Of a stretch of 64,000 bases of DNA, positions 7,304 to 40,497 are shown piece after piece. Position 1 is the first letter of the stretch. Each line of letters starts with the position of its first letter. The position numbers and the translations under genes are program-made. This stretch comes from a virus, in IMG/VR virus record IMGVR_UViG_3300010397_000045, positions 1 to 64,000 of that record; one strand, written 5' to 3'. A model generated the notes under the pieces. That model saw only the letters and a list, made by a program, of their open reading frames with translations. It did not search any database and was not told where the DNA came from.

Positions 7304-7620
7304 TTTGGTACCAACACCGGTAGCTCATCAACAGGTTTCAATGTTGCATCCTGAGGATCAAGCGGTCGCAGCTCGGCCGTGATCTTATGGCCGAACGCGG
7401 CCTCGCGGGAGCGTATCTCCAGTATCGCCCGGTCGCAGTACCAGCGGGTGGCCTCGCGGCAGACCTCGAGTGTGGGATACGGATCGGAGCTGTTGATGAT
7501 GTCGCGAAACGACCCTCCCGGCGCGAGATGCACCAGCCGCCAGCCGTCGAGATAGTGGACGTAGTGCACACGCACCAGCAGCTCGTGCTCCACAGCCTCG
7601 AGCCCGTTGAAATCCATCAT
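7291..7620 (-). CDS. Hypothetical protein
   Basis: 109 residues, mixed alpha/beta, beginning MMDFNGLEAVEHELL. No recognised motif. Overlaps the downstream start by 13 bases and the upstream stop by four; clearly within the operon. Confidence 0.7.
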   Translation of the reverse strand: MMDFNGLEAVEHELLVRVHYVHYLDGWRLVHLAPGGSFRDIINSSDPYPTLEVCREATRWYCDRAILEIRSREAAFGHKITAELRPLDPQDATLKPVDELPVLVPKWLN

Positions 7621-7826
7621 GACGGCCGCGGCAACCGCGCTGCGATCTTGATGGCATCCGCCAGGATCGCGATGGTGTTTTTGTCGTCCGTGTTCTGCAT
7701 GAGGTTCACCTGGCCATCCTGCTCGCTATACCACACCACCGCAACTGCGAGTGGCTCGGCGCCAAGATGCTTCTTCAGCACCTCTGTGATACCCTCAGCC
7801 AGCGCCTGACTGTTTACGTTGCTCAT
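7617..7826 (-). CDS. Hypothetical protein
   Basis: 69 residues starting MSNVNSQALAEGITEVLKKH. The ATG at 7826 overlaps the upstream stop (ATGA), so the longer frame is rejected. Family unknown. Confidence 0.7.
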   Translation of the reverse strand: MSNVNSQALAEGITEVLKKHLGAEPLAVAVVWYSEQDGQVNLMQNTDDKNTIAILADAIKIAARLPRPS

Positions 7827-8026
7827 TTCAACCACTCCAAGAGTGCATCGGCTGCACCCACCGCAACTAACGACAAATCCCACAGCGAACCAGAACGGTT
7901 TGGGTTCGCCATGATGCCTTGCATCTGCATGGATGCCATCAGCTCGCGCTTGGTGAGACCTCCTTCGGCGACGATCACATCACCGACCTTGCGTAGGGTT
8001 GTAAAAGCAGATTCGTTCCCATTCAT
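7823..8026 (-). CDS. Hypothetical protein
   Basis: 67 residues starting MNGNESAFTTLRKVGDVIVA; predicted helical. ATGA-coupled at both ends. Not recognised. Confidence 0.7.
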   Translation of the reverse strand: MNGNESAFTTLRKVGDVIVAEGGLTKRELMASMQMQGIMANPNRSGSLWDLSLVAVGAADALLEWLK

Positions 8027-11537: not shown

Positions 11538-11624
11538 TGGTTGCTTGTGGAGGATTCGAACCTCCGAGCCTTGTTAAGGCAACACCCTTTCGGGCGCCGT
11601 GTCTACCAACTTCACCAACAAGCG
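11538..11624 (-). tRNA. tRNA-Leu-like class II tRNA with abnormal anticodon arm
   Basis: 87 bases. The acceptor stem pairs CGCTTGT with ACAAGCA (six good pairs, C1-A72 unpaired), followed by discriminator A and an encoded CCA. The D arm is GTG-AAGTTGGTAGA-CAC, as in Leu tRNAs, and the T arm is GGAGG-TTCGAAT-CCTCC. A long variable arm GCCTT-AAC-AAGGC marks class II. The anticodon arm is odd: GGCGCCC-GAAA-GGGTGTT makes a seven-pair hairpin with a GNRA tetraloop, so no seven-base loop or U33 exists. It may be a decoy, a processing signal or a decayed tRNA. tRNA-like identity is secure; decoding is doubtful. Confidence 0.7.
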
Positions 11625-12469: not shown

Positions 12470-12687
12470 GTTGGTATCTCCACCAGATATGCCACACCTG
12501 CGAATGGGTCAGACGTACCGACAGGTACCACGGACCACGTACGGCAATACATAGTACCTCGGATGAGCGACCGCCTCGCACCGTATAACTCGACGAGTCT
12601 GTGACCGGGGTACTTCGTCTGGCACACCTGGTCTGGAGGGTTGTCGTACAGTATCGCGTCCGGGTGGCACAACTCGAGCGTTCTCAT
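12466..12687 (-). CDS. Hypothetical protein
   Basis: 73 residues beginning MRTLELCHPDAILYDNPPDQ. Three cysteines. ATGA-coupled to the Rieske gene. Not recognised. Confidence 0.55.
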   Translation of the reverse strand: MRTLELCHPDAILYDNPPDQVCQTKYPGHRLVELYGARRSLIRGTMYCRTWSVVPVGTSDPFAGVAYLVEIPT

Positions 12688-13298
12688 AACAGCCGCGTTC
12701 TATCGCCAGCAGCAACACGATCATCGCGATCGCTGCGAGTCTGTACATCCACATCGAGAACCCTCCCGGTTGCCTTGTCGAACCTCAATCCATGTGCAGG
12801 GCAGACCAACACGCCGCCAACTTCTTCGTACATCGCCTCCACGGGCGTACCCTTGTGTGGGCAGCGCCCGTTCATAATCGCCTGGCCACAATACCGATCG
12901 CGCAAGCGCACCTGCCACGGCACGATCGCAGGTCTGAGACAGACCATTAGCCGCGGGATGAGCGTGAGATATGGCAGGATATCGGCATCCATGCAGATGC
13001 TCGAGGTCTCGAGCCTGTTCGGACTGCCCAACCGGCGCAACTCACTGCGGTATAAGTCCTCCGGCACGAACTGCCAGTTGATGTGCGCGTGATGGCCTTT
13101 GAAGGCACCCGATGACGTGTTGAAGCTGTTGGGTATGAAACCCTCATCCACCTGGAACTCGTGCAACAACGGCAGCCAACCGTTAAAACCCTGGTAGTCC
13201 CTTAGGATATACGAGCCGCCCGACGGCGTCTGCTTGTCGAGCACCACGTTGAGCTGTAGGCACAACACGTTGTACTGCTTCCCCACTTCGTAACTCAT
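12684..13298 (-). CDS. Rieske-type [2Fe-2S] domain protein
   Basis: 204 residues. The C-terminal third has RCPHKG (C146, H148) and, 17 residues later, VCPAHG (C166, H169), a complete Rieske ligand set C-x-H-x17-C-x2-H, followed by LRFDKATGRVLD as in ferredoxin-type Rieske domains. The N-terminal 130 residues are unfamiliar and lack the mononuclear iron signature of ring-hydroxylating oxygenases. Likely an electron-transfer or iron-sulfur scaffold protein of unknown partner. AAGGAG precedes the ATG. Rieske domains are uncommon in phages. Confidence 0.75.
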   Translation of the reverse strand: MSYEVGKQYNVLCLQLNVVLDKQTPSGGSYILRDYQGFNGWLPLLHEFQVDEGFIPNSFNTSSGAFKGHHAHINWQFVPEDLYRSELRRLGSPNRLETSSICMDADILPYLTLIPRLMVCLRPAIVPWQVRLRDRYCGQAIMNGRCPHKGTPVEAMYEEVGGVLVCPAHGLRFDKATGRVLDVDVQTRSDRDDRVAAGDRTRLL

Positions 13299-28062: not shown

Positions 28063-28395
28063 ATGCGATTAGATATCTACATACACATCGTTAACGACGA
28101 TGCGACACAACATTCGATACTTGAAAAGGTGACCCAAATGGCTGTTGATATGACCAAACTTGTGGCTGCCGTCGCAGCCGAGAAGACCGTCCTCGATTCG
28201 GCGATCGCTTTCATCAATGGTGTTCCGGCGCTGGTGGCCGCGACTGTCAAGCAGGCGCTCCTCGACGAGGGCGTTGCAGATGCCGCGGCACAGGCTGCCG
28301 CAGACCAGGCTCAGGCTGACATCGAGGCAGAGACCGCCTCCGTGCAGGCTGCTCTGACAGCCACCCCGACACCTCCGGTGACGCCAACACCGTGA
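28063..28395 (+). CDS. Helical virion-associated protein
   Basis: 110 residues, start after AGGAGG. Ala/Gln-rich helix from about 30 to 95 (AAVAAEKTVLDSAIAFINGV) and a Thr/Pro tail. This type of small helical protein between head genes is common; role unknown. Confidence 0.7.
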   Translation: MRLDIYIHIVNDDATQHSILEKVTQMAVDMTKLVAAVAAEKTVLDSAIAFINGVPALVAATVKQALLDEGVADAAAQAAADQAQADIEAETASVQAALTATPTPPVTPTP

Positions 28396-28721
28396 GTTTC
28401 TTTTTGTTCGTAAAAAGGGTGCTGGACTTGGCCGGCACCCGCAACATACCAAGCGCTTGCGACGAACCGGCATTTGGCGGTATTGGACGCGTGGCGCACG
28501 ACATCCGAGGAGAATGCAACATGTTTTCAGGCGACGCAGGATTCTTGTCAGATCCACCCGTGCTCACCGTCAAGGAGAACCGCACGCACTGCGAGGCGTG
28601 CGGTGCGAAGCTCGAGCCCAACGTCATGCACAAATGCGCAGGCAACGAGGAGTGGAAACCCCAAACCATCACCTCTCAGGATGTCGGTAGTATCGATGAT
28701 GTACTGGGGGTGGCGAAATGA
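28392..28721 (+). CDS. Small Cys-motif protein, start uncertain
   Basis: 109 residues from a GTG overlapping the prior stop, or 66 residues from the ATG at 28521, which has a strong GAGGAGA site. CEACGAKLEPNVMHKC is a likely zinc site. The 28392-28520 part contains a GGGTGC/GCACCC hairpin and may be untranslated leader. ATGA overlap with the next large gene. Confidence 0.6.
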   Translation: MSFFLFVKRVLDLAGTRNIPSACDEPAFGGIGRVAHDIRGECNMFSGDAGFLSDPPVLTVKENRTHCEACGAKLEPNVMHKCAGNEEWKPQTITSQDVGSIDDVLGVAK

Positions 28722-30691
28722 ACGCCGCCATCGAGCGTGACGAATTGGAGCGGCGATATCAGGGACGGCGTCAGCCGCAAGACGCCTCGTGCCACCTGAT
28801 CTGGCAAGAGGGTGCGGCCGAGCTGTGGGTTGGCAACAAGGAGGCTTCGCAGACGTTTACCGGCAACGTGTTGTGTGTGCTTGAATACCCGCACTGTTGG
28901 CGTGCGGATGGTACGACGCACATACACATCATGTACGATAACATGGCGCTGCGCTCACAGTTGGATGCGGCTGCCGAATTCATAACCCAGCACATGAAGG
29001 TCGGGTCCAGGCTCCTCGTACACTGCGCGGCTGGCATGGAGCGCTCGCCGCTCACGGTTGCCTGGTGGTTGGTGAAGACCGGACGTTGCCCGGACCTCGA
29101 TGCGGCATACGTCACGTTGCGCGCGGCGCGTCCCATCGTCGCCGATCGGCGGAATTGGATCGAGCCTGACATACAGCCTAAGGAACTCGAGGAGCTGACC
29201 GAGCAGGGCAAGTACGAGTTGATGTGGAAGTACCCACAGTATCGTCGCGTGGCTCCAGGCGCGCAGGTGGCTGAGCAGTTCCTCAGGCTCGCTCAACCGC
29301 GAACCGGCAGCACCGTGATTGACTTCGGTGCCGGCACGGGCCAGGGCGCGATGTGCATGGCGCTCGCGGCGGACCTCCTCTACCGCCAGCCGGTCAAGGT
29401 GCACATGTTGGACTTCGCACGCAACTGTCTCGACGACGAGGTGCGCGATGCAGTCGCAGCGCAGCCGTTGCTCGAGTTCACCCAACATGACCTGACGAAG
29501 CCTGCGCCCCTCTCGGCGCCTTATGGATTCTGCACGGACGTCATGGAGCACATCCCACCGGACCAGGTGGACCTGGTGTTGCAGAACATACTGGCTGCGG
29601 CCCAGCATGTGTTCTTCCAGATCAGTTGCACCGACGACTCGTGCGGAACGTTGATAGGCGAGAAGTTACACCTGTCCGTGCACCCGCCGGCCTGGTGGAA
29701 GGAGAAGTTGGAGAAGTTTCAGTGCGTCTTCCACTACTGGCACGCGGCTGATGATGGGTCAACATGCATCGCGTACGTATCGGCCTGGGCCGACGGCCAG
29801 GAGGTTGTCGACAAAGGTGAACTTAACACCGAGGAGGAGACCATCCGCGCCAACGTGCGGGCCAACCTCTTAGCCGGGTGGAAGCAGGTACGGCCATACG
29901 AGCCACAGCATACCGAGGTGATGATCCTGGGTGGAGGTCCATCGCTCAACGGACAGCTTGACACCATCCGGCGCATGTCGGCTGAGGGTGTCAAGATCGT
30001 GACCCTGAACGGCGCGTACAACTGGGCGCTCGAGCACGGGTTGCAGGTGGGTTCGCAGGTCGTCGTCGATGCGCGCCCGTTCAACGCTCGCTTCACGAAG
30101 CCGGTGGACCCGAAAACCAACTACCTGATTGGATCGCAATGCGACCCCAGTGTGCTCGAGGGTTTGCCGAAGGAGCGCACGTTCCTGTGGCATACGACCG
30201 CGGAAGCGATCCGTGACATTCTAGTGGAGCTGTCACCCGACGATGCGCAGGGCCGGCCAACCTGGTTCGGCATCCCTGGCGGTACCACGGTGTTGCTGCG
30301 TGCGATCCCGCTCCTCAAAATGTTGGGTTATCGGAAGTTCCACCTGTTCGGGTGTGACTCGTGCGTGGTGCACAAGGATACGTGCTCGGATGACAACTCT
30401 GATTTCTGGAATCATCACGCCTACCAACAGGTTGAGAACGACGGTGTGCCACTCTACCCCGCTGTGGTTGGCGGGCGCACATTTCGCTGCACCGCCTGGC
30501 AGATCGCCCAGGCACAAGAGTTCATTTCACTTATCAAGCATATGGGCGATATGTTCGAGCTGGAGGTGTACGGTGACGGCCTGTTGCGTTGGATACTGCA
30601 GCACGGCGCGGACATGTGCGACGAGATGGATGCCCATCGAACTGATGAGGCTCTTGGGATCGAAACTCCCGGCGCCCCGTGGGGAATGTGA
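28718..30691 (+). CDS. Three-domain enzyme: dual-specificity phosphatase, SAM methyltransferase, DUF115
   Basis: 657 residues. Domain 1 (about 25-150) ends in LLVHCAAGMERSP, the Cys-x5-Arg loop of tyrosine/dual-specificity phosphatases (C103, R109), with D74 a possible general acid. Domain 2 (about 165-360) has VIDFGAGTGQGAM (200-212) and DVMEHIPPDQVDLV, a class I methyltransferase. Domain 3 (about 395-620) has MILGGGPSLNGQLDTI and VTLNGAYNWALEHGL, the DUF115/MptE-like pattern of enzymes tied to glycan or pterin chemistry. No break or frameshift is seen. It lies among head genes; substrates unknown, glycan or nucleotide-sugar modification is inferred. Confidence 0.85.
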   Translation: MNAAIERDELERRYQGRRQPQDASCHLIWQEGAAELWVGNKEASQTFTGNVLCVLEYPHCWRADGTTHIHIMYDNMALRSQLDAAAEFITQHMKVGSRLLVHCAAGMERSPLTVAWWLVKTGRCPDLDAAYVTLRAARPIVADRRNWIEPDIQPKELEELTEQGKYELMWKYPQYRRVAPGAQVAEQFLRLAQPRTGSTVIDFGAGTGQGAMCMALAADLLYRQPVKVHMLDFARNCLDDEVRDAVAAQPLLEFTQHDLTKPAPLSAPYGFCTDVMEHIPPDQVDLVLQNILAAAQHVFFQISCTDDSCGTLIGEKLHLSVHPPAWWKEKLEKFQCVFHYWHAADDGSTCIAYVSAWADGQEVVDKGELNTEEETIRANVRANLLAGWKQVRPYEPQHTEVMILGGGPSLNGQLDTIRRMSAEGVKIVTLNGAYNWALEHGLQVGSQVVVDARPFNARFTKPVDPKTNYLIGSQCDPSVLEGLPKERTFLWHTTAEAIRDILVELSPDDAQGRPTWFGIPGGTTVLLRAIPLLKMLGYRKFHLFGCDSCVVHKDTCSDDNSDFWNHHAYQQVENDGVPLYPAVVGGRTFRCTAWQIAQAQEFISLIKHMGDMFELEVYGDGLLRWILQHGADMCDEMDAHRTDEALGIETPGAPWGM

Positions 30692-30846
30692 TGAGTAACA
30701 AGGGATCGTCTCAGCAACCTGCCCGCGCGTCCGAACGGTTGTTCGGGCACGCGGCTTTCGAGACACGTGATTTTGCACTTGCGCGCAACCGGCGGCGCAA
30801 GGCTAACAAGGCTGCGAAGGCGGCCAAGCGTAAGAACCGCCGGTAG
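30691..30846 (+). CDS. Small basic protein
   Basis: 51 residues, its ATG overlapping the previous stop by one base. The last 25 residues are almost wholly Lys, Arg, Ala and Asn (RRRKANKAAKAAKRKNRR). Could bind DNA or RNA; unknown. Confidence 0.6.
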   Translation: MSNKGSSQQPARASERLFGHAAFETRDFALARNRRRKANKAAKAAKRKNRR

Positions 30847-30876
30847 TTTCAATTCAAACACTCGAGGTAATTCAAC

Positions 30877-31356
30877 ATGGCAGCTGGTGCATGGAAAATT
30901 TACACCCGCGCAAAGCGGTATCTTGGGGCCGGTTCCGGCACCATCACGCTCGGCGCGGGTGTGTTCAAGATGGCCCTACACAGGACGTCGGCGTCAGCCA
31001 ACATCCTGAAGGTATCGAACGGTGGCATCTCCACGTGGGGATCGATCGGTTCGGAAATCTCGGCGACGGGCGGATATGCCGCCAACGGCAGGAACCTGCC
31101 GCCGGCCACGGGCAAGTGGACGGTGGGTGCCTCGACGAAGCAGATGAAGTTCACGTACACGACCGCGGGCCTGGTGTTCACGGCCAACGGCGCGAACCTG
31201 AACAACATCCGTTACGCCGTCATCCGCAACTCGACGGGCGCGGGCGCAGGCAAGGCCCTGTGCTTCTGCACACTGTCGACGGCAGCCTTCACCATCACCT
31301 CGCCCAATACGCTGACGATATCGCCGGCGGCCACGGGCGTGTTCACGATGGCGTGA
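30877..31356 (+). CDS. Conserved phage structural protein
   Basis: 159 residues, beta-rich, Gly/Ala/Thr-rich (WKIYTRAKRYLGAGSGTI, ISTWGSIGSEIS). A conserved phage protein type usually found among head or decoration genes. Role not established. Confidence 0.75.
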   Translation: MAAGAWKIYTRAKRYLGAGSGTITLGAGVFKMALHRTSASANILKVSNGGISTWGSIGSEISATGGYAANGRNLPPATGKWTVGASTKQMKFTYTTAGLVFTANGANLNNIRYAVIRNSTGAGAGKALCFCTLSTAAFTITSPNTLTISPAATGVFTMA

Positions 31357-33421: not shown

Positions 33422-34822
33422 ATGGCTATCACTGCGCCCTGCCCCGTCGCCAAAGTAACTGTCACCGCTGCAGGTGGTATGTGGCGTTGCAACCATGCCG
33501 GGTTCAACACGACGTTGTATGGATACTTCACGTTCTCGGCATTGCCAACGCAGGCGGGTTACAAGTATCTGGTGCAGTTCTACAACACGAGCGGCGCCGC
33601 GGTAGGCGTGGCGGTCGATCCGTCCTCTTACACGCACCACGACCACGGCATCGGGTCGGCCAATTGGACAGTATACTCCATACCATTGTCGGCGTTCGGC
33701 AGCATCGGGACGGTAGGCGGCGTTAGCATCAAAGACAACAGCGGCGCCGCATCTAACACGTTCTACCTGTCGGCTGTTGGGTTCTGGGGCAGCCCGGCCA
33801 GCGGCTTCAGGTTCGCACCTGGGCACTATGCGCATAGCCGGTTTGGTTATCACTTCGACACGCAGACCGTCTTCGACGGCATCATCAGTGATCTGCAGAC
33901 ATTGCCCGTGCCGTTCCGTGGTGTGTCCATCAACGCCTACTACGGTAATTTCGATAGGGGTACGAGCAGTGCCGACTTCAGTCAGGGTATAACCAACGTC
34001 CGTACCGTGTTGGACGCGGCCCTGGCGGCTGGCAAGTTCGTGGGGTTACATTTCAGTGAGCAGAACTTCACCAGCTCGGCGTTCCCCAATTCACCGACCT
34101 ATCCGACGTGGTGGAACTCCGGGTGGTGCAAGACTGGCAGCGTTCCGCAGATCTACGCCGATCTGACGCAGACGGCCGTAGTCAACACCATCACGGCGCA
34201 GATCCAGGCTTATGGCGCAGCGTTCAAGGATCACCCGGCGCTCGCGTGGTTCAGCCCGTTTGACGACTCGTCGATTAGCACGACCAACTTTGATGGGACC
34301 ACGTACTACGCGAACCGGGTGTCACTGTTCCAAGTGGCAAGAAACGCCTTCCCTCGGACGATGATACGAGGCTACTGGAGTTTCACCAATCAGGCAGCCG
34401 CGCAGTACCAGGCGTTGATTCAAAGTTGCTTCAACTTGGGGGGCTTCCTGTTGGCGTCTCCCGACCCGCCGCTCGTCGGGCCTCTTCAGTCTAACATCAA
34501 TCGGGACATTACCGGGTACCGCGTCTACAGGGGTGACATAGGCACGGTTGATTTCAGGCCCAACTATCGCGTGGCTGCTGAGGTCCAGGACATCGGGCTG
34601 AGTGTGTCGCAGAATAACCTCTCCACACCTTCGAATATATTCACGTACCTGACGTCGACCAGCCAGATCAACCCATCGTTCATGATCTGGCAACAGGAGA
34701 GTGACGGCAACGCGCAGACCAGCTGGTCGGCTATCAAGACCTACGTGGCAGGTCTCGGTGGTCCCAATTATGGTATCCGGGTAACCTCGCCTAACGACGG
34801 GTTTGCATATCAACTCCTATGA
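33422..34822 (+). CDS. Putative virion-associated glycoside hydrolase-like protein with CBM-like domain
   Basis: 466 residues. The first ~115 residues form a beta-sandwich whose end, VYSIPLSAFGSIGTVGGVSI then FYLSAVGFWG, parallels a domain in the preceding protein. Residues ~120-440 alternate helices and strands like a (beta/alpha)8 barrel, with VSINAYYGNF, GKFVGLHFSEQN, LAWFSPFDDSS, FLLASPDPP and FMIWQQESDG at likely strand ends; acidic residues there could be catalytic. A depolymerase or glycan-binding barrel is inferred; no GH family is assigned. Confidence 0.55.
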   Translation: MAITAPCPVAKVTVTAAGGMWRCNHAGFNTTLYGYFTFSALPTQAGYKYLVQFYNTSGAAVGVAVDPSSYTHHDHGIGSANWTVYSIPLSAFGSIGTVGGVSIKDNSGAASNTFYLSAVGFWGSPASGFRFAPGHYAHSRFGYHFDTQTVFDGIISDLQTLPVPFRGVSINAYYGNFDRGTSSADFSQGITNVRTVLDAALAAGKFVGLHFSEQNFTSSAFPNSPTYPTWWNSGWCKTGSVPQIYADLTQTAVVNTITAQIQAYGAAFKDHPALAWFSPFDDSSISTTNFDGTTYYANRVSLFQVARNAFPRTMIRGYWSFTNQAAAQYQALIQSCFNLGGFLLASPDPPLVGPLQSNINRDITGYRVYRGDIGTVDFRPNYRVAAEVQDIGLSVSQNNLSTPSNIFTYLTSTSQINPSFMIWQQESDGNAQTSWSAIKTYVAGLGGPNYGIRVTSPNDGFAYQLL

Positions 34823-38592: not shown

Positions 38593-40497
38593 ATGCCTAT
38601 CCACAAAACATCGGGTGGTTGGCAGTGGGGTAATAACGGTCACGTGTACCCCAACCGCGAGGGTGCCGAGAAGCAGGCGGCCGCGGCGCACGCGCATGGT
38701 TTTACCGGAGACGCCAACGCCGCAGGCGTCGCCCTGCGTTCGCCCCAAGGCCGTCTGCTGTTCCTCAAACGCAGCGACGCCGGCGATCACCCTGGTGAGT
38801 GGTGCTTTCCCGGTGGGAAGATCGAGGCGGGCGAGGATTCACTGGCTGCGGCGTTGCGTGAGACCCGTGAAGAGACGGGACACAACGTCAAAGAGACGAC
38901 GCCGGTTGAGTCACGCAACGGATTTGCGACGTTTGCGGAAGCGGTCGAGCAAGAGTTCGTCCCGGCCTTGAACGAGGAACACACGGCCTACGCCTGGGCG
39001 AACCCGTGGGACGCGCCAGAGCCGTTGCATCCGGGCGTCAAGGAGACTTTGAGCATGCTGTCGTCAAACCGCATACACGATGCTGACACGTTGGATTTTG
39101 CCGGGTACTACGCGCCCGAGAAGATCCGGGGCACGGAGAAGCGTCGCATAACCCCGGAAGGGTTTATGGTCATCGAGGGTAATCCGATCGCCCGCATAGG
39201 TGAGCAGGTCTACAACTCGCGCGAGATCAACAAGGATGTGTCCACCGATGACCCGAAATACATCAAGCCCAACGGCTCCGGCGTCATCGTAGTCGAGCGC
39301 CTCGAGGAAGAGGTGTTCCACCCGGAGACGCTCGCCTCCTTCGAAGGCAAGGATCTGACCATCGAACACCCTCCAGAGGGTGTTGATATCACCAACTGGA
39401 AAAATATGACCGTGGGGCATGTGCAGAACGTGCGCCGCGGGACTGGCATCGAAGACGACCTGGTGCTCGCCGACATCATAGTCAAAGATCCGATGGCGAT
39501 CGAGCACATCAACAAATACCTCCCGGAAATCTCGGCCGGTTACCGTGCCGATTACGAGCCGGTCGAGCCTGGGAGGGCTATTCAGCGCAACATTATCGGC
39601 AATCATGTGGCCGGGGTAAAAGCCGGGCGCGCAGGTGCCCGGGTTGCAATCCGTGACCATGCAATAGATACAGGAGACATAGATATGCCCACGCCAAACC
39701 GGACGTCAGTGTTGCGCGCAGTGCTCGCAGCAATTGGGGTCAAGACGGAAGACGTTGCCCGAGTCGAGTCGGCCGTGAGTGCGGTCGACACTATCGACGA
39801 GTCCAGCAACGAGAAGGAGACCGCGAAGAAGATGCACGAGATTTCGAATGACATGAAGGCCGTCAAGGACTGGATGGCTGCACGCGATGCCGAGCGCGAG
39901 GAGGAGAAGAAGATTGCGAAGGAGGCGCTCGACAAGAAGACGCGCGATGCTGAGAAGGAGGAGACCGAGAAGGCTGCGGCAGCCAAGGAGTTGGCTGAGA
40001 AAGAAGCTGTCGGTGACACCATCATCGAGGCCGAGGGCACCGGTAGCGCGGTCAACCTGGGCAAGACCTGGAAAGGGTCGATGACGGGCGACGCAGCCGC
40101 CGAGGAGCCGATCCTCTCGGCGATCAACGCCCGCGCGGAGATCCTGGCACCGGGAGCTCCTAAGCTCACGGCGGACTCTATCAAGGGCAATCAGGGGCGT
40201 GCTCTCGCGGCACATCTGCGTTACGTGTTGACGCAGCATGCCACCACTCCCACCGGCCGCGTCAATGTGCAGCAGTTTCTCGTTGGTGATTCGATTGAGA
40301 AATTGAGTGGCACCAAGCTGGTAGGTGTGTTCAACGGTGCCGCGGCGTTGGCCCGTGCCAAGAACAACCAGTTGTCGTTGGTGACGGCGCGTCGCGCGAC
40401 TTCTGATGGAGTTAGCAAGGCGCCACGTACCGCGGCCGAGATCAATGCTGCCAACCGTGAGTATTGGGCAAAACGTAACGGCGGGGCGTCTTCGTAA
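38593..40497 (+). CDS. Nudix hydrolase-DUF2213 prohead protease-scaffold fusion
   Basis: 634 residues in three parts. About 1-160: N-terminal segment GGWQWGNNGHVY, then a Nudix fold with the box GKIEAGEDSLAAALRETREE (75-94; G75, E81, R89, E90, E93, E94 all present). About 175-355: DUF2213, a phage head maturation protease family, with DLTIEHPPEG and LPEISAGYRADY holding plausible His and Ser catalytic residues. About 365-634: charged coiled coil (REEEKKIAKEALDKKTRDAE) plus a C-terminal helix region, typical of scaffolds. It should shape and mature the prohead; the Nudix domain is an extra activity. Confidence 0.88.
   Translation: MPIHKTSGGWQWGNNGHVYPNREGAEKQAAAAHAHGFTGDANAAGVALRSPQGRLLFLKRSDAGDHPGEWCFPGGKIEAGEDSLAAALRETREETGHNVKETTPVESRNGFATFAEAVEQEFVPALNEEHTAYAWANPWDAPEPLHPGVKETLSMLSSNRIHDADTLDFAGYYAPEKIRGTEKRRITPEGFMVIEGNPIARIGEQVYNSREINKDVSTDDPKYIKPNGSGVIVVERLEEEVFHPETLASFEGKDLTIEHPPEGVDITNWKNMTVGHVQNVRRGTGIEDDLVLADIIVKDPMAIEHINKYLPEISAGYRADYEPVEPGRAIQRNIIGNHVAGVKAGRAGARVAIRDHAIDTGDIDMPTPNRTSVLRAVLAAIGVKTEDVARVESAVSAVDTIDESSNEKETAKKMHEISNDMKAVKDWMAARDAEREEEKKIAKEALDKKTRDAEKEETEKAAAAKELAEKEAVGDTIIEAEGTGSAVNLGKTWKGSMTGDAAAEEPILSAINARAEILAPGAPKLTADSIKGNQGRALAAHLRYVLTQHATTPTGRVNVQQFLVGDSIEKLSGTKLVGVFNGAAALARAKNNQLSLVTARRATSDGVSKAPRTAAEINAANREYWAKRNGGASS
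39685..40497 (+). CDS. Nested scaffold protein from an internal start
   Basis: An in-frame ATG at 39685 (residue 365 of the fusion) is preceded by AGGAGA seven bases away, a strong ribosome site inside coding sequence. The predicted 270-residue product would be scaffold without protease, the arrangement of lambda C/Nu3 and related phages. The start sits right at the protease-scaffold boundary, which supports the idea. Confidence 0.65.
   Translation: MPTPNRTSVLRAVLAAIGVKTEDVARVESAVSAVDTIDESSNEKETAKKMHEISNDMKAVKDWMAARDAEREEEKKIAKEALDKKTRDAEKEETEKAAAAKELAEKEAVGDTIIEAEGTGSAVNLGKTWKGSMTGDAAAEEPILSAINARAEILAPGAPKLTADSIKGNQGRALAAHLRYVLTQHATTPTGRVNVQQFLVGDSIEKLSGTKLVGVFNGAAALARAKNNQLSLVTARRATSDGVSKAPRTAAEINAANREYWAKRNGGASS

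Follow-up and report, generated by a model that had tools for sequence, protein, structure and literature searches.

Does a protein that joins a dual-specificity phosphatase (DSP), a class I methyltransferase (MT) and a DUF115/MptE-like domain among the structural genes of a phage form a natural unit, and what might it modify? The question is raised by a stretch of 64,000 nucleotides, positions 1 to 64,000 of the IMG/VR virus record IMGVR_UViG_3300010397_000045 (hereafter the window), in which a preliminary description had recognized the three domains in one frame. The frame proved to be as described: ORF 28718-30691 opens with ATG at 28718, closes with a stop ending at 30691 and encodes 657 amino acids without interruption, with HCAAGMERS at residue 102, DFGAGTGQG at 202 and GGGPSLN at 405. 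Pfam matches exceeded the cut-off for the DSP (DSPc, PF00782, residues 74-146, E 6.7e-11, 42.6 bits against 33.5) and for DUF115 (PF01973, residues 396-550, E 1.9e-13, 51 bits against 34.6), with the MT just below it (Methyltransf_23, residues 183-329, E 8.8e-6, 26 bits against 27). The MT of relatives exceeds this cut-off, and phrog_24759, annotated as "methyltransferase", matched the window MT at 7e-12; the relative L035 scores 83.4 bits against PF01973. Judged by sequence comparison, these domain matches go beyond chance motif hits.

The virion-operon setting was likewise borne out. The gene lies inside the structural block, preceded by terminase, portal and head-morphogenesis genes and followed by DUF2213, major capsid, DUF3383, tape-measure-like, Dit and baseplate genes. 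Its start and stop both overlap the adjoining ORFs (Table 1), which makes it part of a tight operon, and the first gene of at least 90 amino acids after it encodes a phrog_644 protein. A role in DNA modification was set aside, as the gene sits with structural genes and has no DNA-modification neighbour among the annotated window genes. Elsewhere, the window encodes a 634-aa structural-block protein joining a NUDIX domain to DUF2213 (38593-40497), a protein of 204 aa that matches Rieske-type [2Fe-2S] (2.9e-7) and, weakly, Trm112p, but may instead be a zinc ribbon (12684-13298), and a 466-aa fibre-region protein lacking a Pfam match, which by eye resembles a glycoside-hydrolase-type module (33422-34822). 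A tRNA-like gene to which ARAGORN gave no amino acid lies at 11538-11624.

Table 1. Features of the DSP-MT-DUF115 gene and its immediate neighbours in the window.
Feature	Position	Strand	Basis or remark
109-aa ORF, zinc-ribbon-like THCEACG...HKC motif	28392..28721	+	Stop overlaps start of the DSP-MT-DUF115 gene (ATGA); sequence comparison
DSP-MT-DUF115 protein, 657 aa	28718..30691	+	ORF; Pfam and PHROGs matches
N-terminal dual-specificity phosphatase region, residues 1-160	28718..29197	+	Pfam DSPc
PTP loop HCAAGMERS, residues 102-110	29021-29047	+	Sequence motif
Class I SAM methyltransferase domain, residues about 161-360	29198..29797	+	Methyltransf_23, phrog_24759
DUF115/MptE-like/Maf_flag10-type domain, residues about 366-638	29813..30631	+	PF01973; AF2 model
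55-aa Lys/Arg-rich ORF	30691..30858	+	Overlaps stop of the DSP-MT-DUF115 gene (TGATG); junction sequence
phrog_644 protein, 159 aa, 22% Ser+Thr	30877..31356	+	phrog_644, 8.3e-7; putative candidate acceptor

The phosphatase was examined for its catalytic residues and its distribution. The loop Cys103-X5-Arg109-Ser110 is intact and follows the C-X5-R-S/T pattern. In DSPs, the general acid Asp is expected about 30 residues ahead of the catalytic Cys; Asp74, 29 residues before Cys103, lies outside the aligned stretch 76-149 and has no homologues for comparison, so that the earlier statement that all key residues are kept holds for the loop and, at this position, yields a candidate. The best PDB sequence match is DUSP10 (3.6e-7), and the best solved matches are protein phosphatases, with the glycan phosphatase LSF2 among the weaker ones. 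The three-domain arrangement was seen once among about 250 loci, namely in the window itself. DSPc was absent from 31 related virus contigs, a DSP-only search of viral contigs confirmed none of five candidate stretches, the exact HCAAGMERS pattern had no match across all viral contigs, and isolated phages offered nothing beyond one weak match (E 1), a phosphatase from a Sulfolobales virus. Within the retrieved loci, the phosphatase-loop motif recurred in just two other ORFs, both short and unlike a phosphatase. The trio, for which no described phage system had been known at the outset, was thus found nowhere else in the sequences searched, and the proposed search for the same domain order in other phages led back to the window alone.

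The nearest relative (L001, 66% identity) has no DSP. There, two zinc-ribbon-like motifs precede the MT, the second being homologous to the window ORF 28392-28721 and fused to the MT N-terminus. Since this segment adjoins the MT directly in the relative, the DSP is read as an insertion in the window: it appears to have entered between the zinc-ribbon segment and the MT, so that an ancestral gene was split and the overlapping start arose. The DSP would then be a lineage-specific addition, represented by a single case. It may even act independently of the other two domains, as a phosphatase of proteins or lipids with a phosphoprotein of the host or the virion as its target, and share their frame only for the sake of co-expression. 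Its absence from the nearest relative and from the 31 related contigs, together with its kinship to protein phosphatases such as DUSP10, makes this a serious contender, compatible with a glycan role for the remaining pair; we nevertheless hold it to be somewhat doubtful, given the in-frame fusion to the pair and the occurrence of LSF2 among the matches.

The natural unit is not the trio: the conserved core is MT plus DUF115, which viruses commonly encode as a pair. Scanning viral contigs returned 230 stretches encoding relatives, and nearly all of the 80 that were kept match residues 160-640 alone; further scans gave 416 MT-like and at least 572 DUF115-like stretches. The layouts among about 250 loci comprised DUF115 followed by phrog_644 (79), MT-DUF115 with phrog_644 on both sides (71), MT alone (32), the reversed order DUF115-MT (30) and MT-DUF115 followed by phrog_644 (16). 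The reversed class is usually located 3' of the major capsid and decoration-type genes (L087, 7935-9263, and about 29 other loci). Fusion in both orders implies a joint function. The MT residues D202, G204, G206 and D232, representing the DxGxGxG SAM-binding motif and the downstream acidic residue, are near-invariant in 171 relatives, in line with the original claim; a further MT motif, FCTDVMEH, is found at residue 271.

Where the MT stands alone, a sialyltransferase-like or DUF115 partner was found, fused or within 3 kb, in 30 of 36 loci. Part of this count depends on profiles derived from the very neighbours being scored; the matches to PHROGs and Pfam do not depend on these profiles. Among the other loci are two on cellular contigs and several truncated where the contig stops. 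Several partners independently match phrog_4603, "alpha-2,3-sialyltransferase", and the MT is fused to a phrog_4603 sialyltransferase-like domain in L101 and, by profile, also in L102 and L106. The phrog_4603 genes beside or fused to this MT family (L101, L109, L110, L112) resemble the MT-DUF115 protein in combining a sialyltransferase-type enzyme with an FCTDVMEH-type methyltransferase in head modules; they differ in having a divergent transferase, often separate genes, some sulfotransferase neighbours and no DSP. A sulfotransferase-type neighbour occurs in 10 of the 36 loci, with a Pfam match for two, and L109 also encodes a phrog_1962 glycosyltransferase. A search of 32 virus records for the sulfotransferase family gave one sub-threshold match, so these enzymes are confined to a subset of loci. 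In several head modules (L107, L109, L110, L113 and others), genes for this MT, a sulfotransferase and a sialyltransferase-like protein lie side by side.

The MT family also extends to cells. A relative in a Rhodospirillales MAG (L089) belongs to a flagellar gene cluster, beside FlgE, FlgK and a flagellin-type gene; a TPR/glycosyltransferase-like gene is also close (L089, 7327-16195). This relative, together with the published report that the N-terminal domain of Maf shows weak motifs of methyltransferase type (PMC11339370), renders incomplete the earlier statement that each family is separate in bacteria.

The structure prediction suggested in the preliminary description was run for the DUF115 domain. 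The AlphaFold2 model (14 sequences; pLDDT 84, pTM 0.82) matched both the Maf and MptE folds: Foldseek placed Maf (5mu5, E 3.7e-8, TMq 0.62) first among PDB entries and MptE/HPPK (8sd5, E 1.5e-6, TMq 0.46) second, followed by human sialyltransferases, some CMP-bound. The TM-scores are moderate, and MptE is near behind Maf in this fold search; the profile comparison separates them further, with 5.1e-10 over 180 residues for Maf against 0.0057 for MptE. The Maf alignment takes in the SQ..DP, G.TV, FG.D and HH stretches and is confined to residues 249-428 of the 5mu5 chain. Marked positions in the window protein are GGGPS (405-409), N431, D451, S473, G545-D547-S548, H567, Q571 and N574; from N431 onward, all are near-invariant in 217 DUF115 relatives, as had been claimed. 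The His pair around H567 aligns with that of Maf, suggesting H567 as a candidate catalytic base.

Maf is the known system closest to the phage domain. It O-glycosylates Ser/Thr residues of a structural surface protein, flagellin, with nonulosonic acids, and its central domain has been likened to the sialyltransferase Cst-II (PMC11339370). Maf belongs to the same Pfam family, PF01973, through its Maf_flag10 domain, and its reported succession of a weakly methyltransferase-like and a Cst-II-like domain resembles the phage MT-DUF115 protein. The phage protein differs from Maf in that its SAM-binding methyltransferase domain is intact, its gene lies in a virion module and, here, a DSP is present; the remaining N- and C-terminal domains of Maf are unmatched and a flagellar gene setting is lacking. 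Given this partial architecture and the phage head module, the DUF115 domain is Maf-like, not a Maf. The closest viral fold matches (TMq 0.68-0.77) are uncultured Caudovirales proteins, A0A6J5PVH5 and A0A6J7XC21 ("6-hydroxymethylpterin diphosphokinase MptE-like") and A0A6J7X5Q0 ("Methyltransferase domain containing protein"); compared by the DUF115 fold only, they are 685-714 aa long, with room for further domains. A search of isolated phages with the DUF115 part returned no relatives, and a literature search on DUF115 or MptE-like proteins in phages found no relevant report.

A constant neighbour of MT-DUF115 is phrog_644. It is the next gene of at least 90 amino acids after DUF115 in all nine MT-DUF115 clusters (60% identity), usually after a gap of a few bases, and its members average about 25% Ser+Thr. 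No phrog_644 gene lies downstream of the reversed DUF115-MT genes, and mycobacteriophages also carry phrog_644, after minor tail genes; in the single mycobacteriophage record inspected, it had neither a DUF115 nor an MT neighbour. Absent from the one and present in the other, phrog_644 need not be the acceptor. A structural model of phrog_644 (pLDDT 78) had no meaningful PDB match. A second paralogue of phrog_644, divergent in sequence, is encoded upstream of MT-DUF115 in about 70 loci besides L035, where it lies at 7479-7931.

From these observations, we propose, with a probability of roughly 0.5, that a phage enzyme of Maf/sialyltransferase-like type, fused to a domain that methylates sugars, decorates a protein of the virion, perhaps the one encoded by phrog_644, and that a phosphatase was added in the window lineage. 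The glycan reading is supported by the fold kinship of DUF115, the conserved putative active sites, the recurrent coupling of the MT to sialyltransferase-type enzymes, the position among head genes and the fixed phrog_644 neighbourhood. The gene would be expressed with the virion genes as a glycan-modification enzyme. Its DUF115 domain may transfer an activated sugar, perhaps a CMP-sugar of nonulosonic or sialic type supplied by the host, to Ser/Thr residues in a protein of the virion, with the Ser/Thr-rich product of the neighbouring phrog_644 gene as the leading candidate acceptor. A search of 32 virus records for CMP-sugar synthetases (PF02348) found none, so the donor would come from the host. 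The MT domain, as its coupling to the transferase suggests, could then O- or N-methylate the transferred sugar. That the DSP takes a phosphate off the sugar, the acceptor or a precursor is conjecture from one case: a glycan-type theme is likely, as the stepwise modification first envisaged implied, and its phosphatase step is conjectural because relatives have no DSP. Modification of a host signalling molecule, likewise envisaged, found no support in this analysis. To our knowledge, the virion glycosylation of mycobacteriophages has no DUF115 or phosphatase link. Its likeness to the present case lies in phage-encoded glycosyltransferases aimed at a capsid protein, as proposed, for example, in the Maravista announcement (PMC11256854).

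The same enzyme could instead modify the host envelope, acting on lipopolysaccharide, capsule or another surface glycan, for example to prevent superinfection or to facilitate release. A set of sialyltransferase-like, methyltransferase and sulfotransferase genes would suit envelope glycans equally well, but phages that differ greatly from one another carry these genes within the head module, beside those for capsid, adaptor and phrog_644 proteins, and expression at so late a stage would do little to exclude superinfecting phages; we regard envelope modification as unlikely. Still less probable is that DUF115 is a true MptE-like pyrophosphokinase making a modified pterin or another small molecule such as a nucleotide. 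Although the Pfam family is named for MptE and 8sd5 ranks second in the fold search, the Maf sequence match is far stronger and covers more of the domain, and the neighbours are sulfotransferase, glycosyltransferase and structural genes with no pterin context; of the two roles initially allowed for DUF115, glycan transfer is favoured and pterin metabolism recedes. Finally, an assembly artefact at the DSP-MT join of the metagenome contig is very improbable: the join is known from one contig, with no independent copy in the viral-contig searches, but the frame is continuous, the ATGA overlap involves a homologous zinc-ribbon ORF, and the three parts have similar third-position GC (0.75 in the DSP, 0.74 in DUF115), which speaks against misassembly or a recent splice of foreign DNA without excluding either.

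Together, the MT-DUF115 pair is of more interest than the singleton trio. Somewhat more tentatively than the reading of the gene itself, we suggest that it marks a virion-modification system that is widespread in uncultured phages and so far undescribed, in which an enzyme of Maf/sialyltransferase-like type, together with its own sugar methyltransferase, in some cases a sulfotransferase and here a phosphatase, would build a capped O-glycan on phrog_644 or another capsid-associated protein. If this is true, hundreds of proteins labelled "MptE-like" or "methyltransferase" would gain a testable function with a named candidate acceptor, and the lone DSP fusion would offer a natural way to probe whether the pathway includes a phosphate step. 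Glycosylation and methylation of phage particles would then be far commoner than described, carried as a compact, mobile gene pair of the head module.
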